Assembly: GCA_029264955.1 (NCBI GenBank)
Contig: JARHYC010000016.1
Location: forward strand, 1-63,491
Reading direction: 5' to 3'
Source of the DNA: Faecalibacterium sp.
GTDB lineage: Bacteria > Bacillota > Clostridia > Oscillospirales > Ruminococcaceae
DNA length: 63,491 bases
Below the pieces are notes generated by a model, which made no database searches, had not been told where the DNA came from, and worked only from the letters and a program-made list of their open reading frames with translations. Below, one piece after another: positions 1-37,899 of the stretch (positions within the stretch are counted from its first letter, which is position 1; each line of letters opens with the position of its first letter). The position numbers and the translations under genes were made by a program.

Positions 1-168
1 ACGGCAAAGCCGACTGCGGAGCCTACGGCAAAGCCGACTGCGGAGCCTACGGCAAAGCCGACTGCGGAGCCTACGGCAAAGCCGACCGCAGAGCCTACGG
101 CAAAGCCGACTGCGGAGCCTACGGCAAAGCCGACCGCAGAGCCTACGGCAAAGCCGACTGCAGAACCT
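1..168 (+). repeat. 24-bp tandem repeat, seven copies, coding TAKPTAEP
   Basis: Copies start at 1, 25, 49, 73, 97, 121 and 145. Three types differ only at a few positions in the second half of the unit (gactgcggagcct, gaccgcagagcct, gactgcagaacct). All changes seen are synonymous, so the array is under protein-level constraint and probably expands or contracts by slippage. Confidence 0.95.
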
Positions 169-345
169 ACTGTAGCACCGGTTGCTCCCACAACTGCACC
201 GACCGCTACACCTACCGCAGCTCCGGCACAGGGTGGTGCAACATCTACCAGAGATTCTACTGGTTTGGGCGGTTGGATGAGCATGGCAGTTCTGAGCGGA
301 TGTGCCGTCATTCTTTGCAAGAAGAAGCGCGACGACGAACGCTAA
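1..345 (+). CDS. Repeat-rich cell-surface protein, 3' end only
   Basis: The frame is open from the first base and stops at 343-345, so the start lies upstream of the window. The visible 114 residues begin with seven copies of the octapeptide TAKPTAEP, encoded by a 24-bp tandem repeat (1-168). A Pro/Thr/Ala linker follows, then a short hydrophobic stretch (about WMSMAVLSGCAVIL) and a basic tail KKKRDDER. This is the layout of a wall-spanning stalk with a C-terminal membrane anchor. A canonical LPXTG or SPKTG box is not visible; the nearest sequence is STRDSTGLGGW, so sortase anchoring is uncertain. The functional domain is outside the window. It lies about 650 bp upstream of the cobalamin riboswitch and, given the intervening IS remnant, is probably not in that operon. 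Confidence 0.8.
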   Translation, partial: TAKPTAEPTAKPTAEPTAKPTAEPTAKPTAEPTAKPTAEPTAKPTAEPTAKPTAEPTVAPVAPTTAPTATPTAAPAQGGATSTRDSTGLGGWMSMAVLSGCAVILCKKKRDDER

Positions 346-551: not shown

Positions 552-860
552 ATGCCCATGAGGAAATATACACACATCAAGGAAGGCGAACCAGAGTTGT
601 TGGCTGTGCGGCATGCTGGTTATACCCGGAGAAAAAGTGCGTATCACTTTGGTCTGGAGAAAAGTCAAATCAAAAATTGGATGAACCGCTATAACTGTGA
701 GAGGGATTGCCTTCTAGCTGGCCTACAACCCAAGCACCGTGGTCGCCGAGGAAGGAAATGCCTCTCCTGTTGGCATGGCGGAATACCAGTATGAAATCAA
801 TCGACTGGAAATGGAAAATGCGTGCTGCGGGATTTTCTGCAATTCGTGGGAAGAACGTGA
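552..860 (+). pseudogene. Decayed IS3-family OrfA transposase subunit
   Basis: The first frame (ATG 552) encodes an N-terminal helix-turn-helix like IS3 OrfA, including KSQIKNWMNRYN, followed by an RGRRGRK stretch. It then goes out of frame. The expected OrfA continuation is still readable in shifted frames: YQYEINRLEMENA, then LRDFLQFVGRT ending at TGA 858-860, so at least two frameshifts are present. No OrfB (DDE integrase) follows. The element is therefore an inactive remnant. A 13-bp perfect inverted repeat sits just upstream of its start. Confidence 0.75.
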
Positions 861-993
861 GGCAATCCTTAAAATACCATATGTACAAAAAATAATTTAA
901 AGAATCCTTGACAGATGACTGGCTACTGCGATATCATTAAAATAATTGTGAACAGACAGCTATCCACGAAAGTTGTCTGAGACAAGATTATAA

Positions 994-1162
994 ATCATGT
1001 AATGGGTGCATCGCTTTTGGCGATGTTAAATGGGAAACCGGTGCAATTCCGGTACAGTCACTCCTGCTGTAAGGTGGACAATCAAACAAAAATACCATTG
1101 GGCTTACCCGAGAAGGTGTTTGAGCGGATGAAGCTAAGTCAGAAAACCAGCCTGTTACATTG
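994..1162 (+). promoter_or_regulatory. Cobalamin (adenosylcobalamin-type) riboswitch
   Basis: Several conserved blocks of the cobalamin aptamer appear in order: gggtgcatcgc, then aaatgggaaaccggtgcaat (about 1028-1047, the GGGAA-ccGGUGcAA core), the gtcactcctgctgtaa block (about 1056-1071), accattgggc, and a B12-box-like segment aagctaagtcagaaaaccag (1131-1150). A closing helix can be formed by atgtaa near 996 and ttacat near 1156. Terminator-like hairpins follow immediately before the downstream coding region, as expected for transcriptional control. Family knowledge: these aptamers repress B12 uptake and synthesis genes when cobalamin is plentiful. Which corrinoid is sensed cannot be read here. 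Confidence 0.88.
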
Positions 1163-1199
1163 CAAGAGGTTATTCTGGGATGAAGGACGACCTGCCGGA

Positions 1200-1265
1200 A
1201 GCACAGTGTGTAGCTGTGCTTTTTACGGTTGCCTTCTGTTCAAATCCGAACAGAAGGCTTTTTTT
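1200..1265 (+). terminator. Riboswitch expression platform with two tandem hairpins
   Basis: The first hairpin is agcacag/ctgtgct (1200-1206 with 1214-1220) followed by TTTT. The second is gccttctgttc/gaacagaaggc (1231-1241 with 1248-1258) followed by seven T. The second is a textbook intrinsic terminator. They lie between the aptamer and the ribosome binding site at 1293-1300, so ligand-dependent termination would stop the downstream operon. Confidence 0.85.
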
Positions 1266-1306
1266 ATGTCCAGAAAGCTGTAAGTACATTCGAAGAGGAG
1301 TTTTCT

Positions 1307-4300
1307 ATGAAATCAAACGCAGTAAAATGGATGGGGCAACGGGTCTTGGCGTTCTCGTTGGCATTGGTGCTTTTTATGCAGACAGCACCTCTAACTGCCA
1401 TCACCGTAAATGCACAAGAAATTGCAGATGTCCTAGCAGAAACTGAAACATTCGTTGCGGCAACAAATCCAGAAACAAAAGATTCAGAATCTATGGAGAG
1501 GATGACGGGCGCTGAAACTAAAACGAATCCGCGGGATCCACTCACCACAGCACAAGGAGAAACTGTCTCTATCACAAGTGGTGATCAGCTAATAGGCGGC
1601 ATTCCAGCTGGCAGTACCTATGTGCTGGCAAACGACATTGTTATGAGCGGAGACCAGCAGATTGGCCTTGTGGCAGGTGTTCTGGACGGCGCGGGTTATA
1701 CCATTACACTAGTCGGAAAGCCACTGGTCAATGAGCTAACTGGCACCATTCAAAATTTGCTGGTGGACGGCAAGGCAACCTTAGGTATCGGGCAGGGAAC
1801 CATTGCCTGTACCGTAAAGGGCGGGACCATACAGAACTGTGCCTCTCTGGTAACAATTGACCCCGGTTGGGATTCAAATCAGGGAGGACTTGCAGGTAAT
1901 CTGGAAAATGCAAAAATCTACAATAGTTTTTTTGCTGGTGCTGGAAAAGATATGTTTGGACTGGTTGCAAATAACGGAATCTTCTGCTCCGCCAACAATC
2001 CGTCTGCACACTCTCAGGTAAAGAACTGCTACTACACAGAGGGCAATGGCATCGGTAGCGGCTCTGCATGGAACCGAGACGATACCAGCAACGGCAAAAA
2101 ATCGCTCGATGAGATGAAAACGGCTGAATTCGTACAGCTGTTGAATACATCCAATGTGGGCAGTGGCTATATCTGGGCGGCACAAGATGGTGTTTTGCCC
2201 AAGTTGATTCCTGGTGGTAGTACCTTAGAACCTGCTGATAAGGCAGCCTTGAAATCTGCCATCAAAGAAGCGCAGAGTAAAAACGAAGGCGACTACACCA
2301 ACGAGACTTGGGCACCCATGCAGGAAGCATTGCGCGCTGCCATACGGATTGACGAAAAAATTGATGCAACACAAGATGAAGTAAATGCGGCAGAAACTGC
2401 GCTTCAAAATGCTATTGCAGCTTTGAAAGAAAAAGTACGCAATCTTTCCCCGGTGGAATCCCCGAAAGAAGGCATCGCTTTTATCTCCAATCAGGACGAC
2501 CTTGCACGAATTGACGGAAATGATCCAAAGGCTTTTTATCAGCTGACACAGGACATTACAATCAAAGACAATTTCTTGTCGCCCAATTTGGCTGGTGTTT
2601 TGGATGGTAATGGACATACCATTACTATCCGAACAGCAAGCTCGTTGTTCGGAACAATCAACGAAACGGGTGTTGTGCAGAACTTACGAGTAAAGGTAGA
2701 AGGAAACTTTACCAACCGACAAGAATTTGCTCCCTTTGCCGAAAAGCTCAAAGGCGGTATGATTGTCAACTGTATCAGTGAGGTAACGGGTCAGCACTCT
2801 GCTGGATATGTGCACAAAATGGAAGACGGTGTTTTGGTGAACTGCCTCACAATGGGCCATAACCGCCGTGGTGCATTTGTCTATTTTCAGAAATCTACTG
2901 ATCACCAAAATGTCAATGGATATAAAAGCGGCAAGTTCTACAACTGCTACTGGTCCGCTTCAAACTCTGTCGAAAACATCAATCCGGCAGAGAATCTTAT
3001 CCATTCTGAACCAGTAGGGGACGAACGACTGCGCTCAGCAGATTTTATTGCTCAGCTCAACAAGCAGAAGGGTGAATTCGGCGTAACTTGGGGACGAGAT
3101 ATGGATGGCTATCCGTATTTTGGTGCAGATCAGGGCGATGCTATTATTGATGGTAGCAAGAATCGATATGATGTGCAGTTCATGTGGCATGACCAGAACA
3201 TTCTCACAGTAAAAAATGGACTTTTGCAACTTTCGCCCCAGATGACTGGTAGCAATCGCTTTGCCGGCACCTTCCAGTTGAAGGATGTCCCGCAGGACAG
3301 CACCATTACATGGAGCTGTGAAGATCGAACCCAGCAGGAAATTATGCAGCTTGGCGAAAACGGTGATTTGTATGTATTCCATGATGGTGGCGGTGTGGTT
3401 CGTGCCGTGGAGCACAAAGCCGACGGAACCGAAGAACTGGCAGCAGAGATTCGAGTGGTTTCTGCTTCTCGTGAGATTGAGCAGCTGCAGCTATTGCTGG
3501 ATGGCAAGGTAATTCATGATTCCATTACCGTGCAGGGCTCGGCCGTAAACAGTTTGGAAATTCAGGCAAAATATGCAGGTTCCGATGCATTCCAGACAAT
3601 GCCCTCTTATTTGGTTGAGCTGAACGCTGAGAACCCGGAACTGCTCCGAACTGACTACAATACTGCTTCTTTCTATTTCAGAGCACCCGGCACCAGCAAG
3701 TTGACTGTTACTGAGAAAACGGAAAAAGTAAATCCGGTTTCGATTACGATATCCGTTACATCTGCATATGTACCGGTTGAAAAAGTAACGCCTGCAATCA
3801 GTGGTACCGAGAAAATCCACTACCGCAACTCGATGGGAGCGGGTCAATTTATATCAATTCCGCAATTGGTTCAGGTAGAACCCTCTAACGCAAGCTATAA
3901 AAATGATATTATCATAACTTCCAGCAATCCGGAGATTGCACAATACGATGGCAGCGGTTATACCCCCTATAAAAACGGTACGGTGACCTTTACTGCGAAG
4001 CTCAATGATAACGGAAACGTAGTCGAGGGAACAAGCACTGTTACCTTTACTTATACAAACCCGTTGACAGAAGTTACGGCACCCGCTGGAAAAATCACGC
4101 TGGATCAGGGAACCAAGCAAACGCTTCCACTAACTTTTAAGGGGCAACCGGGCAATCTACATGAAGTTACAGAACCGGATTTGATTTGGACCTTTGATAA
4201 ACAAGGTATCGTTTCCATTCAGCGTCCGAATGCTTTGATGCAGATTCGAAATACAGGAGGTCCGGATGACGGCAACTGGGTTGCATCTACTAAGTTTGAG

Positions 4301-7225
4301 GTAAAGGGCTTGCGCCCTGGTACGGTAGTTGCAACAGGAACCCCTGTGGATACTACTGGTGGCGCAAAACCTATCAAGCTGACCATCACAGTAAAAGGCG
4401 ATGGTAGTGTTGCCAATGAATTCGATATTCCTAAATTTATTGAAACAGGTAAAAAGGCGGCAAGCCGATATTTGAATGAAAAAAATACATTCACCTTTGG
4501 AGACGAGTGGAGTATTTATACATTGATGCGCGATGGTCAGACATTACCCAAGCAAAAACTTGACAACTACTATGATGATGTTGTGACCACTGTTCGCGCT
4601 TGGAACGATAATATTTTGGCGACTGAGGTAGAGCGAACCGCAATTGCGCTCAACATTATGGGGAAAGATATTACGAATATCGATGGTGTCAATCTGGTAG
4701 AGCTGATTTGCAACCACCCTAACTTGACAAAACAGGGCGGTAATTCACTTGCTTGGGCATTGATTGCATTGGATATGAACAACACTGCAATTCCTGCTGA
4801 TATGAAATGGTCCCGAGAGCGCATGGTCACAGAACTTCTTGCCTACCAAAATGCAGATGGCGGTTTCGGTTTGGATCAATCCGGAACTTCTGGCATTGAT
4901 ATGACAGCTATGAGTATTCAGGCGCTGGCACGATATCAGAAACGAGATGATGTGGCAACAGCCATTGACAGTGGTATTGCATATCTAGCGAAAGCTGCGG
5001 GGAAAAATCTAAATCTGGGGAATTCTGAATCCATTGCACAGGTTATTATCACACTTGCCGTTCTGAATCGAGATATCGTTGCAGAGCCGGGTTTTGGCGA
5101 TGAGATGGAAAATATCATGTCTGCTTTATCCGAGTACATGATAGAGAACGAAGGTTTCAAGCATGATAAAAACGGAAAAGTTGATAAAATGGCAACAGCG
5201 CAGGCGATGCAGGCACTTTGCGCCTATGAACGCTTCCTGAATGGTGAAAGTAGTTATTGGGATTTGCGGGGGACCGGTCCGATTGATGATCCTGCAGCAA
5301 AAGTCAGCAGCATGATTGCAGCATTGCCGGAGCAGGTGAGTGCAGCAGATGCAGAATTGATACAGCAAGTACGGGATGCATATAATGCGCTTACGGAATC
5401 CCAGAAAAAACGTGTGACGAATTTGGATCGGTTAATTCAGGCAGAAAAGGAATTGGCAGAAGTGCTGGCCGTACAGCAGGTAATCGATGCAATTGATGCT
5501 TTGCCGGAAGAACTTACGCTGGCAGATGCTTATTTGGTAAAGTCTGCACGGGATGTATTCAATCGGTTAACACCTGCGCAGCAGTTGAAGGTCATCAATC
5601 TGAACAAGTTGGAGGTTGCCGAGAAAGCTTTGCAGAAACTGTTGAATGCAGACAGTGTCATGGGTATGATTGAAAATCTGCCTAAAAACGTCACTTTGGC
5701 AGATAGTAACGCCGTACAGGCAGCACGCGCTGCATATGATTTGCTGCCAAAAGAGCAGCAAGCTCTGGTTAAGAATTTAGACAAGCTGGAAAATGCAGAA
5801 GCAAAGCTGGAAGAACTGAATTCTGCACAGCAGATACAGCAGGTGATGGATGCCATCGACGCTTTGCCGGAACATATTACGGTAGAGAATGAAGCAGCGG
5901 TTCAAGCTGTTCGTGATGCGTACAATCGTCTGACTGCAACCCAGCAGGCACAGGTCATCAATGTAAACAAGCTGCTGGCTGCTGAAAAGACAATCGCAGA
6001 CCAGAAAGCTGCAGCACAGGTAGAACGTGCCATTCATGCATTGTCAAATCCTGTAAGTATCGCAGACAAACAAGCTGTACAGGATGCCCGCAGCGCTTAT
6101 GAAAAACTGAGTGCCGATCAAAAAGCTCTGGTAAAGAATCTGGATAAACTGATTCAGGCAGAATCGGAGATTACAGATTTGGATGCAGCACAGCTGGTCA
6201 TGGGGATGATTAAAGATTTACCAATCAACCTTACCATTAAGGATGAACAAATGGTAAAGGCTGCACGCAACGCTTATGAAGCACTTACTGAAAAGCAGCA
6301 GAGTATGGTTTTGAACCTGTATATTCTGGAACGTGCAGAACAGTTTGTAGCAGAAAAGAAAGCTGTTCAGCAAGTAGAGGACGTCATCGATGCTTTGCCG
6401 GAAGTGATTGGAAAAGAACATTCCGAGGCAATCAAGGCTGCTCGTGCGGCATATAACGAACTTTCTCCAGAGTTGAGAGCGTTGATTCGCAACATAGATA
6501 AACTGCTAAACGCCGAAAAAGCATTGAAAAAACTACGCAAACCAGCGGATAAACCCATTAAACATACTAAATGGGAAAGCAATGTGGTTGAAGCTGTTGT
6601 ACAAGACGGTGTTGTTTCCGCAAAGCAATTGGCACAGATTCAGGGTGAAGATTTGATTTTGCGGATTGAAGGTACAATGGCAAGTGGTGAGACATATACT
6701 TTGTCCATCTATGGCAAAGATATTCTGAAAGCAGAAGATTTCTATGTTGGAATGACGCGTGAAGGTCTCTATGAAACAGAGATACACAAGCTGTCGGAGA
6801 ACCCCGAGATTTTCCGCTTCCTGCAGAGCGGTGAATTCGCATACCCTGTGATGGTCGAAATGGAAACCGCCTTGGAAGATGGCGAATATTTGTTGTTGCG
6901 ATATGACCCAGCACAGCAGCGAGCAGTTTTAGTCAGCCGTGTGCAGGCAGAAGACGGCAAGATACAATTTATTATCAAGGAGGGCGGCGAGTATTTCATC
7001 GCAAAGAAAGCCAGCAAAAAAACAATTTCGGAATTGGAAAAGGCAGAAGAAATTTCTGTTGCAGCACAGCCGGAAACCTCGGAGGTAAAACCTGAAACCT
7101 TGCCCGTCCAACAGGAAGAAGAAACGAATAATCCTGTTGCTTGGATTTGGATTCCGCTTCTGCTTTTGGGTGGATGTGGTGTAATTGTAGTGTATCAAAA
7201 GAAGAAGGAGCACAAAGGTGAATAA
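1307..7225 (+). CDS. Giant surface protein with transcobalamin/intrinsic-factor-like alpha-barrel domain
   Basis: 1972 residues. Start ATG 1307 is chosen over an in-frame ATG at 1229 because 1229 lies inside the terminator, while 1307 has AAGAGGAG upstream and begins a clear signal peptide (residues 1-36, ending near VNAQ). Order of parts: two beta-helix/GLUG-like segments (about 90-300 and 390-605, with motifs such as GGLAG and NCYY) split by a FIVAR-like helical module (about 307-376); several Ig-like beta domains (about 640-1030); an alpha/alpha-barrel domain (about 1038-1320) with QNADGGFG and IDMTAMSIQALARY, resembling the prenyltransferase/transcobalamin alpha domain; seven helical repeats of about 58 residues (about 1329-1740); a beta domain; and a C-terminal TM helix plus KKKEHKGE. 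Inferred role: surface capture of cobalamin under riboswitch control, together with the overlapping lipoprotein gene. Binding itself is not proven by sequence. Confidence 0.85.
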   Translation: MKSNAVKWMGQRVLAFSLALVLFMQTAPLTAITVNAQEIADVLAETETFVAATNPETKDSESMERMTGAETKTNPRDPLTTAQGETVSITSGDQLIGGIPAGSTYVLANDIVMSGDQQIGLVAGVLDGAGYTITLVGKPLVNELTGTIQNLLVDGKATLGIGQGTIACTVKGGTIQNCASLVTIDPGWDSNQGGLAGNLENAKIYNSFFAGAGKDMFGLVANNGIFCSANNPSAHSQVKNCYYTEGNGIGSGSAWNRDDTSNGKKSLDEMKTAEFVQLLNTSNVGSGYIWAAQDGVLPKLIPGGSTLEPADKAALKSAIKEAQSKNEGDYTNETWAPMQEALRAAIRIDEKIDATQDEVNAAETALQNAIAALKEKVRNLSPVESPKEGIAFISNQDDLARIDGNDPKAFYQLTQDITIKDNFLSPNLAGVLDGNGHTITIRTASSLFGTINETGVVQNLRVKVEGNFTNRQEFAPFAEKLKGGMIVNCISEVTGQHSAGYVHKMEDGVLVNCLTMGHNRRGAFVYFQKSTDHQNVNGYKSGKFYNCYWSASNSVENINPAENLIHSEPVGDERLRSADFIAQLNKQKGEFGVTWGRDMDGYPYFGADQGDAIIDGSKNRYDVQFMWHDQNILTVKNGLLQLSPQMTGSNRFAGTFQLKDVPQDSTITWSCEDRTQQEIMQLGENGDLYVFHDGGGVVRAVEHKADGTEELAAEIRVVSASREIEQLQLLLDGKVIHDSITVQGSAVNSLEIQAKYAGSDAFQTMPSYLVELNAENPELLRTDYNTASFYFRAPGTSKLTVTEKTEKVNPVSITISVTSAYVPVEKVTPAISGTEKIHYRNSMGAGQFISIPQLVQVEPSNASYKNDIIITSSNPEIAQYDGSGYTPYKNGTVTFTAKLNDNGNVVEGTSTVTFTYTNPLTEVTAPAGKITLDQGTKQTLPLTFKGQPGNLHEVTEPDLIWTFDKQGIVSIQRPNALMQIRNTGGPDDGNWVASTKFEVKGLRPGTVVATGTPVDTTGGAKPIKLTITVKGDGSVANEFDIPKFIETGKKAASRYLNEKNTFTFGDEWSIYTLMRDGQTLPKQKLDNYYDDVVTTVRAWNDNILATEVERTAIALNIMGKDITNIDGVNLVELICNHPNLTKQGGNSLAWALIALDMNNTAIPADMKWSRERMVTELLAYQNADGGFGLDQSGTSGIDMTAMSIQALARYQKRDDVATAIDSGIAYLAKAAGKNLNLGNSESIAQVIITLAVLNRDIVAEPGFGDEMENIMSALSEYMIENEGFKHDKNGKVDKMATAQAMQALCAYERFLNGESSYWDLRGTGPIDDPAAKVSSMIAALPEQVSAADAELIQQVRDAYNALTESQKKRVTNLDRLIQAEKELAEVLAVQQVIDAIDALPEELTLADAYLVKSARDVFNRLTPAQQLKVINLNKLEVAEKALQKLLNADSVMGMIENLPKNVTLADSNAVQAARAAYDLLPKEQQALVKNLDKLENAEAKLEELNSAQQIQQVMDAIDALPEHITVENEAAVQAVRDAYNRLTATQQAQVINVNKLLAAEKTIADQKAAAQVERAIHALSNPVSIADKQAVQDARSAYEKLSADQKALVKNLDKLIQAESEITDLDAAQLVMGMIKDLPINLTIKDEQMVKAARNAYEALTEKQQSMVLNLYILERAEQFVAEKKAVQQVEDVIDALPEVIGKEHSEAIKAARAAYNELSPELRALIRNIDKLLNAEKALKKLRKPADKPIKHTKWESNVVEAVVQDGVVSAKQLAQIQGEDLILRIEGTMASGETYTLSIYGKDILKAEDFYVGMTREGLYETEIHKLSENPEIFRFLQSGEFAYPVMVEMETALEDGEYLLLRYDPAQQRAVLVSRVQAEDGKIQFIIKEGGEYFIAKKASKKTISELEKAEEISVAAQPETSEVKPETLPVQQEEETNNPVAWIWIPLLLLGGCGVIVVYQKKKEHKGE
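5291..6530 (+). repeat. Seven imperfect ~58-residue helical repeats (coding)
   Basis: Within the giant surface protein, units recur with the pattern xVxxxIxALPxxxxxxDxxxVxxARxAYxxLxxxQxxxVxNLxKLxxAExxL. Recognisable cores include RDAYNALTESQ, RAAYDLLPKEQ, RSAYEKLSADQ and RAAYNELSPEL. Predicted as paired helices forming an extended stalk between the alpha-barrel and the membrane anchor. DNA identity between units is low, so the duplication is old. Confidence 0.85.
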
Positions 7226-7958
7226 AGTAATTTCTATACTGCTCTGCCTGACTCTATTATTCAGTCTGGCAGGCTGTGGTACGGGAAAAGTCAATCATAC
7301 TCCAGATCAGCCGAGTCAGCAGTTTGAGCAAGGTGGCAGTGTAATTGCTACCCCTGAAACGGCAGAATCCGTAACTGAATCAGACACCGAGATAGTGGAA
7401 GATGATGCGTTTGACGTTTCCGATGAAATCGGTGAAACGCAGGATTTTTCTAAATATAAAGAAGTACACAAGAAAGTCCCGAGTACATCTTCTGCTGATG
7501 GACAGCGAGAACCTGTAGAGCCAGGAGAAGTTCCCGTTGATCGCAACAATCAGAAAACCTGTTATCTCAGCATTTCCTGCGCTACGATTCTGAACAACAT
7601 GGAAAACTTAGTTGAAGGAAAAGATGTACTGGTGCCGTCCGATGGAATTATTTTGCCTAGAACGGAAGTGACGTTCTATGAGGGTGAATCTGTGTTTGAC
7701 GTTTTACAGCGAGAAACGAAAAATCGCAAAATCCATATGGAATCCAACTTTACGCCTATGTACAACAGTGCATACATTGAGGGTATCGGTAATCTTTATG
7801 AATTTGACTGCGGCAGCGAATCCGGTTGGGAATATCGCGTCAATGGCTGGTTTCCCAATTATGGCGTAAGCCGCTATGTGGTACAGCAGGGCGATGAAGT
7901 AGAATTCCTTTACACCTGTAATATGGGCGTCGATTTGGGTGCTAATGTAATGAATTAA
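7218..7958 (+). CDS. DUF4430 (transcobalamin C-terminal-like) lipoprotein
   Basis: 246 residues, GTG start at 7218 with AAGGAG at 7205-7210; it overlaps the preceding stop by 8 bp, so translation is probably coupled. The N-terminus is a lipoprotein signal with lipobox LAGC (Cys20), placing it on the outer face of the membrane. An acidic low-complexity linker (about 25-105) leads to a C-terminal domain (about 113-235) with the hallmark SGWEYRVNGWFPNYG (202-216) and a final GDEVEFLYTC strand, typical of DUF4430. That family is named transcobalamin-like C-terminal because it is homologous to the beta domain of intrinsic factor and transcobalamin. The matching alpha-type domain is in the upstream gene. 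I infer that the two proteins jointly bind a corrinoid at the cell surface. No ABC or ECF transporter is encoded nearby. Confidence 0.85.
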   Translation: MNKVISILLCLTLLFSLAGCGTGKVNHTPDQPSQQFEQGGSVIATPETAESVTESDTEIVEDDAFDVSDEIGETQDFSKYKEVHKKVPSTSSADGQREPVEPGEVPVDRNNQKTCYLSISCATILNNMENLVEGKDVLVPSDGIILPRTEVTFYEGESVFDVLQRETKNRKIHMESNFTPMYNSAYIEGIGNLYEFDCGSESGWEYRVNGWFPNYGVSRYVVQQGDEVEFLYTCNMGVDLGANVMN

Positions 7959-8296: not shown

Positions 8297-10198
8297 TTAT
8301 GCGAGATCAATTTGATAACTATTATCGTGGAAGTTAACAGTAACGATAGTTCCATCGCTGTAAGTAGTACGTTGTTTCTTCCAGTCATGATTTAAAAATT
8401 CGTGACGAACCATTTCGCACTTGGCAATACGTTCCTGGAGTACCGCTACTGTTTGATAACGAGAAATTTCCTCATCCAGGTGTGTTTTGGCGGTATCATC
8501 AAAAGCTCCGTCGCAGTTAGGGTATGCACCGTCTTTGTCCATATACGCGGCACCTCCGTTTAAAAGTGCATAGAGCATATAATCTTCCTGCCCTTCAATA
8601 CGATCCATAAGCCAAGGAAGAATGATACAGTCATGATAGACCAGATTAAAAAGGGGAGTAGGAATACCTTTTCTCGGAGTACCAGGAGCTTGCAGCATGA
8701 AATCGTAAGGACCATAGTGCGCAAAAACAAGATTTTTCATTGCCCAGTCTGTGACTTCTTCAGAGCTAGGCAAAATGTTTTTAGAGAGTAAATAGGAAAA
8801 ACAGGCATTGCGATATTCAAAGCACTCTTTTCTTGTCATTTTATGCCAGGGATGGTTACACTCGTCGCCTTCATTGCAGGTAAATACATCCAAATAGGAA
8901 GCCTCTAAGTGAATGCCATGACGCAATACCTCTTCAAAATTGCGCTTTACATAATATGGTGCTTGGGTAGCGCAGAGTAACGACTGTCTGCCACCGGCCC
9001 ATCGAGACATATCAAAGATAGAGCCGTCCGGTGCATAGCAGGCAAAGTCTTTATCAAAGGTGGGCGCATCAAAATAATAATCCCGATACTGATCGTGCAG
9101 ACCAAGCATGTATCCACAGTCCTGAATGGTATCGGACAATTCTTTCAAGCCCTTCCAACCGCCAGCTTCTTTACAGGCAGGTAGATAATCGGGGTGTTTA
9201 TTGTCATAACCGGGATCACCCCAGCCATCCAGATGCAGATACAGTTTCTGGATACCTTTTTCTTTATAGTGCTTGACCTCTGCTGTACGGAAAGAAAAAG
9301 AAACTAAGTGATCATTCTTTTCCGGTTCCTCCTTGTTATAATAATAAGAACCGGGAGCAATGTGGGTCTTAATACCTTTATGTACAATTGCAGAACCAAT
9401 CAGTTTATCTACCAGAGGCGATTTCGCTGCTTTTTCTGCAAGTGAGGTAAATAGACCTGTTTCCTTTACATATCCGCGGTAGATTTTGCACAGGTCATTG
9501 TAGTCGCAATCACCCAGAAATGTGTATTTCATAACTCGGCGGTAAGCTATTTTCCCCAAACTTGGTAGCCAGCGGACAGACACATGAGAATATGGACCAT
9601 TCGTAGGATGGTCTACTTGATAAGCAGCGTCCCAAGGCTGTTGGCAGATAGCAATATAACCTGCGCTAGGGCGAATCTGACCAAACCAAGGCATATAGGC
9701 AGCGCAGCTACACATCTGGCCATCAAATTGGAGCTTGCTTACTTCATTCTCCCAAGTATTGGGTAATAAAAGTCCTTGCAAAACATTAAGAACACTATAC
9801 CAGCGATCATCAGGTTCTTCAAATTCCATATAACCAGGCCAGTAGATTGCTTTTAGTGAAATACCTTCTTCATTGAGAGGAACAAATTCAAAGAAAACAT
9901 CTCCCGATACCCCCTCAATCCAAATGATTGTTTCAAAGGCAAATGGGCTCTTGATTCCATCTACCATAAAGCCCTGATAAGTTGACCGAATTCCTTTACC
10001 AATACCAGTATTCCAAGCGTGATGTGAGATAGCGACTGCATCTGAAAAGAAAAACTCCTTGTTATCGGTTGTGACAAATCTAGGTCGGTACGATTCAGCC
10101 CAGCGCCAAGTTTGCGCATGTGAAGTTATGGACAAAGCAAAGCTGGCTTCGTCCAGTTGAAGCGTTGTATTTGCATAATTGACAGTTATAACACTCAT
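8297..10198 (-). CDS. GH129/DUF5696-like glycoside hydrolase, cytoplasmic
   Basis: 633 residues. The start (ATG at 10198) is preferred over an in-frame ATG at 10216 because AAGGAG lies between them. There is no signal peptide, so it should act in the cytoplasm. The middle of the protein resembles a TIM-barrel glycosidase: LYLHLDGWGDPG (319-330), LGLHDQYRDYY, then YLDVF with Asp437 and, 43 residues later, Glu480 in PSSEEVTDW. From memory, the GH129 alpha-N-acetylgalactosaminidase NagBb uses Asp435 and Glu478, the same spacing; GH101 is related. I therefore favour an intracellular enzyme on mucin-type glycans. It stands alone, without transporter or sugar-catabolic genes. DUF5696 glycosidase of unknown specificity is the alternative. 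Confidence 0.65.
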   Translation of the reverse strand: MSVITVNYANTTLQLDEASFALSITSHAQTWRWAESYRPRFVTTDNKEFFFSDAVAISHHAWNTGIGKGIRSTYQGFMVDGIKSPFAFETIIWIEGVSGDVFFEFVPLNEEGISLKAIYWPGYMEFEEPDDRWYSVLNVLQGLLLPNTWENEVSKLQFDGQMCSCAAYMPWFGQIRPSAGYIAICQQPWDAAYQVDHPTNGPYSHVSVRWLPSLGKIAYRRVMKYTFLGDCDYNDLCKIYRGYVKETGLFTSLAEKAAKSPLVDKLIGSAIVHKGIKTHIAPGSYYYNKEEPEKNDHLVSFSFRTAEVKHYKEKGIQKLYLHLDGWGDPGYDNKHPDYLPACKEAGGWKGLKELSDTIQDCGYMLGLHDQYRDYYFDAPTFDKDFACYAPDGSIFDMSRWAGGRQSLLCATQAPYYVKRNFEEVLRHGIHLEASYLDVFTCNEGDECNHPWHKMTRKECFEYRNACFSYLLSKNILPSSEEVTDWAMKNLVFAHYGPYDFMLQAPGTPRKGIPTPLFNLVYHDCIILPWLMDRIEGQEDYMLYALLNGGAAYMDKDGAYPNCDGAFDDTAKTHLDEEISRYQTVAVLQERIAKCEMVRHEFLNHDWKKQRTTYSDGTIVTVNFHDNSYQIDLA

Positions 10199-10672
10199 AG
10201 AAAACTCCTTACTCATGTGTCTAAGCCTTAAAACAATGCTACTACAGTTTCATCTATTTCTCAATGTCATGCGGCAAATCTTCTGCCTCAACAAAAATAG
10301 TGCGGGAGAATTCCTTACTAATAAGAACGCCACGCTAAACTTTTTGGCGGGAAAGATGGCTATGGCAAAAGTCTTTGCAAATTCTATTTTGACCGATATT
10401 CTGTCCAGAAAGCGAGAGGTTGCTACAGGAGTTGCGCCGCTTGCTGCATCTGTACTCGAAAAGCGGTTCTGACTCTTTATTACTTCCATTTTCACTCTGG
10501 TAGAGGGCTTAGGCCGTTTGCTTTATAACACAGTGTATCCAAACAACTATTGTTGATCGTTTAAGGAAAAGTGAAGAACAAATATTTGTCATAATGGCTC
10601 CGGTTTTGTTCAGGTGATGACGTCTACGTAGCAACCAGCACGCATGAATAAAAACATCAATTACAGAAAAAA
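10199..10672. other. Intergenic region, no gene supported
   Basis: Several overlapping short open frames exist on both strands (for example 10179-10472 plus and 10250-10495 minus), but none has a convincing ribosome binding site or protein-family motif. The region may hold eroded coding sequence and presumably carries the promoter of the minus-strand glycosidase gene. I could not assign a promoter. Confidence 0.4.
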
Positions 10673-14670: not shown

Positions 14671-15210
14671 TTAGGCAGATTGATACTGCCCAATTTTTCC
14701 GATATAAATAGCTTCTGCATAGGGGACATTCAGAAAATCATGAGGCCGGACCAGCGAGGATGGTTTATCCAGAACATCAATTTCCGATTGCTTCAGAACC
14801 TCGGCTACAAATTGAGAACAGAACAGTCTGTTTTCTCGATCCTTTTGGATGCCTCGGTAGCAGTACACGAGACCCAGCAGATTATACTTGCAAGTGGTTT
14901 TCTGATAGTCTAAAATCACCTGACGCAACCGTTGCTTTTTTTTGTAGCTTACCGGTATCCGCAGCAGAATAATATCCGACTCCTTATGCACCGCAAAGAA
15001 ACCGCTGCTTTTACTCTCTACCACAAAACCAGCAATAAACATATTCCAAAGTTCTTTTCTCCCAACAGAGTAAATGGTTTCTAGGCTATCATCTAATGCA
15101 ATGGAGCAGTGATTGTAGGAAACTCCCAGAACTCTCCGGATCGTCATACCCAAAAGTGTGTTTGTTTTTGAAACCATAATATATACAAATTCCTGTGATC
15201 TTGTTTCCAT
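14671..15210 (-). CDS. Permuted papain-like amidase (YiiX/C92 family)
   Basis: 179 residues. The start at 15210 (METRSQEF) is chosen because GGAGG lies seven bases upstream; ORF extension to 15240 would run into a terminator stem. Seen: VSYNHCSIAL (His of the dyad in a circularly permuted NlpC/P60 fold), ENRLFCSQFVAEVL (nucleophile Cys) and RPHDF near the end, as in YaeF/YiiX proteins. Family knowledge: these thiol enzymes are thought to cleave amide or ester bonds in lipids or peptides; the real substrate is not known. There is no signal peptide. Its stop TAA shares bases with the ribosome binding site of the glycosyltransferase, so the two are translationally linked. It may act on the same lipid pool. 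Confidence 0.8.
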   Translation of the reverse strand: METRSQEFVYIMVSKTNTLLGMTIRRVLGVSYNHCSIALDDSLETIYSVGRKELWNMFIAGFVVESKSSGFFAVHKESDIILLRIPVSYKKKQRLRQVILDYQKTTCKYNLLGLVYCYRGIQKDRENRLFCSQFVAEVLKQSEIDVLDKPSSLVRPHDFLNVPYAEAIYIGKIGQYQSA

Positions 15211-15224
15211 GCCCATTCCTCCAG

Positions 15225-15258
15225 ATAAAAAAGCGTGCATTTCTCAAAATGCACGCTT
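15225..15258 (-). terminator. Terminator/attenuator just upstream of the C92 amidase
   Basis: The stem aagcgtgcattt (15231-15242) pairs with aaatgcacgctt (15247-15258) around a 4-base loop. On the minus strand the stem is followed by TTTTTT (15230-15225). It lies only 9 bp before the amidase's ribosome binding site, so it separates the two-component/membrane-protein genes from the lipid genes or attenuates read-through. Confidence 0.85.
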
Positions 15259-15381
15259 TATGGATTGCGAAGGCGAATAATTCAGATTAAAATCAGTATT
15301 CATTCCAGTGTTCGCAACAAAATACTTTCGTGCATCCTTTGCATATAGGGAAATTCTGTCACGTCACAAAGTCTTTCCTGC

Positions 15382-15723
15382 TTACTCCATAAAAAGAAAC
15401 AACCCCATTGCACTGGATACAATGGAAATGGTTACTAGAATATTAGATGCTATATATCTGCTTTCTTTTTTTCCGGCATAGCGGAGCAATAGAGCTGCTG
15501 CTGAAAAAAATCCAAAGATCCAGGCAAGCATTTGCTGCCCTATATAGACCATTGGAATACTGGTGGCATTTAGATAGGAAATAAAAAATGCCCAGCAAGA
15601 CAACGCAAAGAAGATGGTATTTTGAACCTTTCTGTTCCGTATGAAAAAAAGAAGAACCGCTCCGAGAAGCGAAATAACGATGCAAGCTACAAACAGCACA
15701 ACTAAAACGAGCAGTGAATCCAT
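15382..15723 (-). CDS. Small integral membrane protein of unknown function
   Basis: 113 residues with four predicted transmembrane segments (about 4-27, 37-55, 60-80 and 88-110) and short basic loops (RNRKVQ, AGKKESR), i.e. a four-helix membrane protein with positive residues between helices 1-2 and 3-4. I recognise no family. It sits 79 bp downstream of the histidine kinase and 13 bp of spacing is not enough to rule out co-transcription, so it may be a target or accessory of that two-component system. A terminator follows it. Confidence 0.7.
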   Translation of the reverse strand: MDSLLVLVVLFVACIVISLLGAVLLFFIRNRKVQNTIFFALSCWAFFISYLNATSIPMVYIGQQMLAWIFGFFSAAALLLRYAGKKESRYIASNILVTISIVSSAMGLFLFME

Positions 15724-33341: not shown

Positions 33342-33612
33342 ATAGAAAAGCTATGACGGGAACAAGTACCCTGAATAAACTACACACAGAGAGGCTTCGG
33401 TTGGTGAAAGAAGCTGTGTCGTCTTCAGGCGAATACATCCCCGAGCTGCAAGGTTGAACTCAATCTGAAAGTAGACCGCGCCGCATGCGAGCGTTACAAA
33501 CGCAGAGTGTTTTTTGCACTCGTGAGGCTACATTTGTGAGAATGTAGTAAACAGAGGTGGTACCGCGATTTTTCCGCCCTCTGCCATTTGATTGGCAGGG
33601 GGCGTTTTCTTT
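33342..33612 (+). promoter_or_regulatory. Tyrosine T-box leader with terminator
   Basis: Long leader upstream of tyrS. The T-box sequence gaggtggtaccgcg is at 33554-33567. A plausible specifier codon TAC (Tyr) lies at 33434-33436 in GCGAATACATCC. A terminator stem cgccctctgcc / ggcagggggcg (33575-33585 with about 33593-33604) followed by TTTTCTTTT competes with the antiterminator. Uncharged tRNA-Tyr would stabilise read-through into tyrS. The same tRNA type is not in the cluster at 37366. Confidence 0.95.
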
Positions 33613-37365: not shown

Positions 37366-37441
37366 GCGGCCGTAGCTCATCTGGTAGAGCGCCACCTTGC
37401 CAAGGTGGAGGTAGCGAGTTCGAGCCTCGTCGGCCGCTCCA
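37366..37441 (+). tRNA. tRNA-Gly (anticodon GCC), copy 1
   Basis: Acceptor gcggccg pairs with cggccgc; anticodon loop TTGCCAA gives GCC; T-loop GTTCGAGC; discriminator T; CCA encoded (37439-37441). Identical to the copy at 37716. Confidence 0.97.
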
Positions 37442-37446
37442 TTTGT

Positions 37447-37522
37447 GGAAGTTTAGCTCAGCTGGGAGAGCATCTGCCTTACAAGCAGAGGGTCAGCGGT
37501 TCGAGCCCGTTAACTTCCACCA
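37447..37522 (+). tRNA. tRNA-Val (anticodon TAC)
   Basis: Acceptor ggaagtt pairs with aacttcc; anticodon loop CTTACAA gives TAC; T-arm GTTCGAGC; discriminator A, CCA encoded (37520-37522). Confidence 0.97.
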
Positions 37523-37525
37523 TGT

Positions 37526-37602
37526 GGCCCGGTAGTTCAGTTGGTTAGAACGCTAGCCTGTCACGCTAGAGGTCGACAGTTCGAGCCTGTTCCGGGTCGC
37601 CA
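37526..37602 (+). tRNA. tRNA-Asp (anticodon GTC)
   Basis: Acceptor ggcccgg pairs with ccgggtc (one G-T pair); anticodon loop CTGTCAC gives GTC; discriminator G; CCA encoded. Confidence 0.97.
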
Positions 37603-37605
37603 TTT

Positions 37606-37681
37606 GCCTCTGTAGCTCAGTAGGTAGAGCAGGGGACTGAAAATCCCCGTGTCATTGGTTCGATTCCGATCGGAGGCACCA
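37606..37681 (+). tRNA. tRNA-Phe (anticodon GAA)
   Basis: Acceptor gcctctg pairs with cggaggc (G-T allowed); anticodon loop CTGAAAA gives GAA; discriminator A; CCA encoded. Confidence 0.97.
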
Positions 37682-37715
37682 TTTGTATGTTGGCATAATC
37701 GATTATGCCAATTAT

Positions 37716-37791
37716 GCGGCCGTAGCTCATCTGGTAGAGCGCCACCTTGCCAAGGTGGAGGTAGCGAGTTCGAGCCTCGTCGGCCGCTCCA
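37716..37791 (+). tRNA. tRNA-Gly (anticodon GCC), copy 2
   Basis: Base-for-base the same as the tRNA-Gly at 37366, including CCA. It is preceded by a 20-bp perfect palindrome (37691-37710). Confidence 0.97.
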
Positions 37792-37824
37792 AAAAACAGT
37801 CGGTTATAAAATGCCGACTTATAT

Positions 37825-37899
37825 GGTGACGTGGCCAAGTGGTAAGGCAAGGGTCTGCAAAACCCTCATCCACCAGTTCAAATCTGGTCGTCACCTCCA
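37825..37899 (+). tRNA. tRNA-Cys (anticodon GCA)
   Basis: Acceptor ggtgacg pairs with cgtcacc; anticodon loop CTGCAAA gives GCA; discriminator T; CCA encoded. Last tRNA of the cluster. Confidence 0.96.

Follow-up and report, generated by a model that had tools for sequence, protein, structure and literature searches.

The animal carriers of cobalamin (vitamin B12), namely transcobalamin, intrinsic factor and haptocorrin, join an alpha/alpha toroid to a beta-grasp domain with a hairpin insert, and we describe here a pair of bacterial genes whose products appear to share with them both folds and, as we propose, the sandwiching of a ligand between the two. The pair lies on a 63,491-nucleotide (nt) stretch of Faecalibacterium sp. 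(contig JARHYC010000016.1 of assembly GCA_029264955.1; the whole stretch is called the window below), where a cobalamin riboswitch is followed by a gene for a large toroid-bearing surface protein and a gene for a DUF4430 lipoprotein (Table 1). It differs from the animal carriers in comprising two chains rather than one, in its membrane and lipid anchors, in its bacterial origin and in its position behind a riboswitch. To our knowledge, extracellular capture of B12 by Gram-positive bacteria is poorly characterised. We consider it probable that this unit is a cobalamin-repressed system for capturing B12 or related corrinoids at the cell surface, coupled to hand-off to an energy-coupling factor (ECF) transporter and to supply of the methionine synthase MetH.

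The nearest precedent is the work of Burroughs, Balaji, Iyer and Aravind (2007; PMC1796856), who defined a transcobalamin-like clade of SLBB domains in Gram-positive bacteria, marked by a beta-hairpin inserted after the helix of the beta-grasp fold. The available text of that paper reports fusions to toroid, FIVAR and beta-propeller domains, second SLBB proteins in operons and CbiO/CbiQ neighbours, states that key B12 synthesis enzymes are usually lacking, proposes B12 scavenging and suggests that animals received the toroid-SLBB form by lateral transfer. A B12-catching role was thus already predicted for the family, and the idea is less new than the first-pass annotation of the window had worded it. 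The window resembles the clade in its kind of beta domain, in its toroid and FIVAR fusions and in the second SLBB protein of its operon, and further common points are CbiO/CbiQ neighbours and a proposed scavenging of B12; it departs from it in that no DUF4430 match was found inside the toroid protein itself and that the ECF genes lie elsewhere. The same text, which predates the work on the S component CbrT, mentions neither a riboswitch nor a lipoprotein nor the split into two chains. Relative to it, the new elements are the riboswitch control with its mirror controls, the kinship of the S components to CbrT, the comparison of split and fused forms, the unit of a small DUF4430 protein with an S component, and the structural ranking.

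On the side of transport, the accessible parts of the report on ECF-CbrT of Lactobacillus delbrueckii (PMC5997447) describe transport of cobalamin and cobinamide by an S component that is homologous to those considered here and that uses one module in common with other S components, whereas the loci described below have their own T and fused A subunits as well as extracellular capture proteins. BtuG and BtuH of Bacteroides, according to the consulted sections of PMC8941943 and PMC6977713, are likewise surface lipoproteins that catch B12 for a transporter, BtuG being a B12-binding beta-propeller and the B12 domain of BtuH resembling known structures only slightly. RUMGNA_00854 of Ruminococcus gnavus (PDB 3u7z) is titled 'putative metal binding protein'; we found no functional study of it, the papers listed for it, as far as their entries indicate, concerning methods. 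We found no experimental study of these bacterial transcobalamin-like proteins in the open-access literature searched, nothing on bacterial B12 uptake among open-access DUF4430 papers (titles and starts of abstracts), and no open-access paper joining transcobalamin, the cobalamin riboswitch and Firmicutes; the examined passages of PMC2667541 do not treat bacterial transcobalamin-like proteins.

The first-pass annotation had placed a cobalamin riboswitch with terminators directly before the two genes. Both the aptamer and the intrinsic terminator were recovered, the aptamer beginning at position 987 and not, as given there, at 994. The leader folds far more stably than expected (z -5.6 for positions 1150-1275), and three terminator-like sites occur on both strands of positions 880-1330, compared with a mean of 0.3 in shuffled sequence. 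The sigma-70-like promoter candidate upstream is a weak one, because two such sites occur in the region and 0.9 in shuffles.

We examined how far this arrangement extends by surveying 119 genomes of the host's family, of which 58 gave 72 DUF4430 matches between them and 80 gave 136 riboswitch matches. Nearly half of the DUF4430 matches (34/72, from 30 genomes) lie at most 10 kb downstream of a riboswitch on the same strand, 17 of them at most 1.5 kb downstream, while within 10 kb no riboswitch was found in the mirror position and none on the opposite strand (0 and 0), and on these controls we set aside the riboswitch as a chance neighbour. Eleven of the 136 riboswitch matches score below the gathering score; with only the 125 above it, the two counts become 31 and 14. 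So frequent a riboswitch in front makes a role of this kind likely for many members of a Pfam family labelled as of 'unknown function'. For the other 38 DUF4430 matches of the family, the 10 kb upstream contain no riboswitch match, and some of these cases may be explained by strict filters, contig ends or other aptamer classes; an adenosylcobalamin (AdoCbl)-II aptamer reaches 36.8 bits at locus L056 (threshold 36.5), and one at L058 is sub-threshold. In a survey of 245 genomes of the host's class, 20 of the 149 DUF4430 matches listed follow a listed riboswitch at a distance of at most 10 kb; the mirror position gives 1 such case and the opposite strand 0. None of the 149 comes from the host's family, and the host genome's own entries are excluded from both the DUF4430 and the riboswitch matches.

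Within the host genome itself (1.88 Mb, 99.6% complete), the cobalamin riboswitch and DUF4430 are each matched twice, with one DUF4430 gene behind each of the riboswitches. The second gene (L005, 11169-11597, minus strand, contig C13) encodes a stand-alone lipoprotein of 142 residues; the aptamer in front of it scores as an AdoCbl aptamer (50.6 bits, threshold 50), and no S component was detected beside it. G081, the only other sampled genome of this genus, carries a riboswitch and no DUF4430 match, and the unit is therefore not universal even in the host's genus.

The domain assignments differ in how far sequence comparison alone carries them. PF14478 (DUF4430) matches the lipoprotein at E 2.9e-15 (56.9 bits, cut-off 23.8), behind a cysteine motif that we take to be the lipobox, in agreement with the first-pass annotation. 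A phmmer search of the lipoprotein against solved structures returned chance-level matches only, the DUF4430 profile picked up no transcobalamin even with E values to 10, and a toroid profile reached bovine transcobalamin at E 0.56 only. As these sequence-only routes to transcobalamin failed, structure models were required. The lipoprotein model is a beta-grasp fold with a hairpin after the helix (helix 67-77, then strands 82-87 and 92-98), and the top structural matches of its DUF4430 domain are all beta domains of transcobalamin, intrinsic factor or haptocorrin, which makes the match specific. Identity in the structural alignments to the animal B12 carriers is 12-19%; invariant glycines are present in the family alignment (A3), possible counterparts of the two conserved glycines of the superfamily.

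The large protein carries the toroid in its middle, at residues ~1031-1316 by sequence (a match of 1.4e-5 to a squalene-cyclase C-domain protein, with which the model agrees), close to the alpha/alpha-barrel region of residues 1038-1320 that had been claimed; the Pfam toroid family scores 12.8 bits, far under its cut-off of 26.5. Hydrophobic segments at either end bear out the signal peptide and the membrane anchor that had been noted, and the ATG is a likelier start than the upstream TTG. A structural match of both parts to transcobalamin was one of the points on which the first-pass annotation had staked its proposal: the DUF4430 half is specific for the beta domain, and the toroid half does match the alpha domain, though not specifically, so that the proposal survived on this point.

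To place the pair among its relatives, we compared 20 loci picked among the stronger DUF4430 matches (L039-L058; 14 of them preceded by a listed riboswitch and 6 not) and a further set of 20. In the picked loci an EcfT frame was present in 20/20 stretches (8 of these loci went into the EcfT profile, A2, and 12 hits are independent of it), a recognisable EcfS in 18/20 and a toroid frame in 17/20. The fetched stretches of the two loci lacking EcfS (L040, L047) end near its expected place. Because the toroid profile (A1) derives from 20 loci and the window, its hits in these are circular; L006, L049, L076, L078, L079 and L083 are not in it. A frequent gene order has the riboswitch first, then the toroid protein, the DUF4430 protein, EcfT, the double ATPase and the S component; the ECF genes lead in L042, L043 and L044. 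No toroid was seen in L050. In L039 (2170-4809, plus strand) and L045 (3855-6494, minus strand) a beta-propeller-like surface protein stands in its place, and PQQ_2 passes the Pfam cut-off in just one of them, L045; these proteins recall BtuG as described in the consulted sections, also a beta-propeller, a likeness at the level of the fold.

Eight loci (L044, L056, L057, L058, L076, L078, L079, L083) combine toroid and DUF4430 in a single chain, with no further DUF4430 frame detected in the stretch, and in three others (L006, L007, L055) such a chain is accompanied by a separate DUF4430 frame. L006, L007, L044, L056, L057 and L058 follow the transcobalamin order, with an N-terminal toroid and a C-terminal DUF4430 domain; in L055 a weak DUF4430 match lies ahead of the toroid. 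A second form of locus was found in 13 of 15 loci with weak DUF4430 matches, mostly picked for a close riboswitch, where a small DUF4430 protein adjoins an S component of ~170 residues; the S components of both forms match CbrT. These compact pairs (L064-L068, L070-L075, L081, L082) often stand behind a cobalamin riboswitch. Since L064-L075 were chosen for a riboswitch close upstream, the aptamers in 10 of 12 loci (all of L064-L073; not L080 or L081) are no independent test. The small gene may be the same as cbrS, a name that the accessible text of PMC5997447 gives to the neighbour of cbrT in Lactobacillus. One locus, L043 (3374-5254, plus strand), has a 626-residue frame comprising the greater part of a CbrT-like S component (7.3e-51) and a C-terminal DUF4430 domain (1.2e-54), which may represent a genuine receptor-transporter fusion or stem from a sequence error, the latter conceivable because the related L042 has two frames.

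The host's own ECF genes are not in the capture operon but on another contig (C14, 14827-18326), where EcfT is found with a fused ATPase-ATPase-S protein; in all 20 picked relatives an EcfT shares the fetched stretch with DUF4430. Positions 14827-15543 of that contig match the S-component profile (A4) at 5.3e-70; the profile in turn matches CbrT (6FNP) at 1.8e-19, its best solved relative, and EcfT matches the CbiQ cobalt-transport family. No cobalamin riboswitch was found before these genes up to E 1. About 3.5 kb away on the same contig lies an importer-like set that we named by eye (binding protein, FecCD permease and ATPase; L062, 1-2958, minus strand), a possible alternative recipient of captured B12. 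The sole B12-binding-domain match in the host genome belongs to a methionine synthase, which combines S-methyl_trans and Pterin_bind with two B12-binding domains, and CbiD, the one corrin synthesis gene searched, has no match. With a methionine synthase present and CbiD unmatched, the host uses B12 and probably imports it.

These observations can be arranged into a model. When intracellular cobalamin is low, the riboswitch would permit read-through of the terminator and both proteins would be made; the membrane-anchored large protein would present its toroid while the lipoprotein would keep its transcobalamin-type beta domain at the membrane, and the two would close over one cobalamin much as the alpha and beta domains of single-chain transcobalamin do. 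The ligand would then be passed to the CbrT-like S component of the transporter encoded on contig C14, and the imported B12 would serve MetH. That the chains are separate is plausible because, according to the available part of PMC5599065, the human alpha and beta domains, when produced separately, assemble once cobalamin is added. Riboswitch control across the family, the single-chain relatives and the CbrT-homologous ECF genes in neighbours and host support the first-pass view of the gene pair as a B12 capture unit, and its two-piece cobalamin site is likewise supported, with the interface between the chains and corrinoid binding as its predicted parts. On balance we lean towards a two-chain transcobalamin on a Gram-positive surface that delivers cobalamin to a CbrT-type ECF transporter, the split form of a module possibly ancestral to the animal carriers. 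Such an arrangement would couple an extracellular receptor to an ECF transporter. For ECF-type import of B12 the unit supplies a receptor that can be put to the test, and it is relevant to the proposal that animal intrinsic factor and transcobalamin came from bacteria. Its naturally divided sandwich binding site could also be reconstituted in vitro. The assignment brings no new principle; it is well supported and directly testable for a family of unknown function.

Several observations weigh against a two-chain site. Small DUF4430 proteins occur without a toroid, which makes the strongest rival one in which the lipoprotein alone is the corrinoid receptor feeding the S component, and the toroid protein, under B12 regulation, serves as an adhesin or scaffold without ligand contact. 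The toroid's unspecific fold match points the same way, as do the compact pairs of the 13/15 weak loci, the host's own stand-alone riboswitch-controlled DUF4430 protein and the crystallisation of isolated human transcobalamin beta domain with cobalamin (in the available part of PMC5599065). We nonetheless regard this rival as rather unlikely, since a toroid lies near DUF4430 in 17/20 picked loci and since the eight loci with a single chain and no other detected DUF4430 frame have the arrangement of animal transcobalamin. It is less likely still that the unit captures another ligand, such as a different tetrapyrrole, a precursor of corrinoids or a complex of cobalt, and that cobalamin serves as the regulatory signal only: the CbiQ-like EcfT would suit such a ligand and PMC1796856, replying to a reviewer in the text available, allows others, but the closest folds to the beta domain are cobalamin carriers and the S component's best solved relative, CbrT, is reported in the accessible parts of PMC5997447 to bind and transport cobalamin and cobinamide.

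The toroid is nearest, by sequence and by fold, to squalene and drimenyl cyclases, and terpene cyclases carry a DxDD motif. That it is a degenerate terpene-cyclase-like or other enzyme, in a surface processing unit behind the riboswitch by chance, is nevertheless very improbable, given the signal-like segment and anchors that indicate an extracellular location, a riboswitch association far above the mirror controls, and a motif position that reads D-x-D-hydrophobic-T in most rows of the toroid alignment; the signal segment and the altered motif are our reasons for rejecting a terpene-cyclase reading of the toroid.

Table 1. Features of the capture unit and its leader (window positions)
Feature	Position	Strand	Basis
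Sigma-70-like promoter candidate, TTGACA - 18 nt - TATCAT	908..937	+	11/12 consensus bases
Cobalamin riboswitch aptamer RF00174	987..1169	+	110.9 bits (gathering score 31.5), E 6.4e-27, full-length match 1-189
Hairpin, aptamer-terminator interval	1195..1228	+	Minimum-free-energy fold of 1150-1275
Intrinsic terminator	1231..1265	+	11-bp stem 1231-1258, then seven T
Large surface protein, 1972 residues	1307..7225	+	ATG 1307 behind GAGGAG; frame open from TTG 1229
Signal-peptide-like segment, large protein	1307..1414	+	Hydropathy peak at residues 13-34; cleavage site inferred
FIVAR-like domain, large-protein residues 311-373	2237..2425	+	E 6.3e-6, 27.2 bits, just under cut-off 29.2
Alpha/alpha toroid, proposed cobalamin-binding alpha domain, residues ~1031-1330	4397..5296	+	Sequence and model
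Helical-looking ~60-residue repeat array, residues ~1331-1745	5297..6541	+	Repeat motif; extent and role judged by eye
C-terminal membrane anchor, large-protein residues 1942-1965	7130..7201	+	Hydropathy; KKK tail after
DUF4430 lipoprotein, 246 residues	7218..7958	+	GTG start, inside end of preceding gene
Lipobox LAGC, Cys20	7266..7277	+	Sequence
DUF4430, transcobalamin-like beta domain, lipoprotein residues 156-233	7683..7916	+	PF14478 and model

The two genes overlap by 8 nt (7218-7225), as the first-pass annotation had it, and the repeat array of the large protein is possibly a stalk. The host cell appears to be Gram-positive, judging from a Spore_III_AE gene in the window and from the lipobox. 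Just upstream of the unit, the window opens with the end of another surface protein (1-345, plus strand), which has a PT repeat and, by eye, a C-terminal hydrophobic segment; between it and the riboswitch lies a short frame that by eye resembles a transposase fragment (552-794, plus strand) and has no Pfam match. A DUF5696 protein with weak matches to the GH101 and GH129 glycosidases adjoins the unit (8300-10216, minus strand). Further along the plus strand, the window contains a T-box leader (33344-33584, 123.6 bits) and six clustered tRNA genes (37366-37896).
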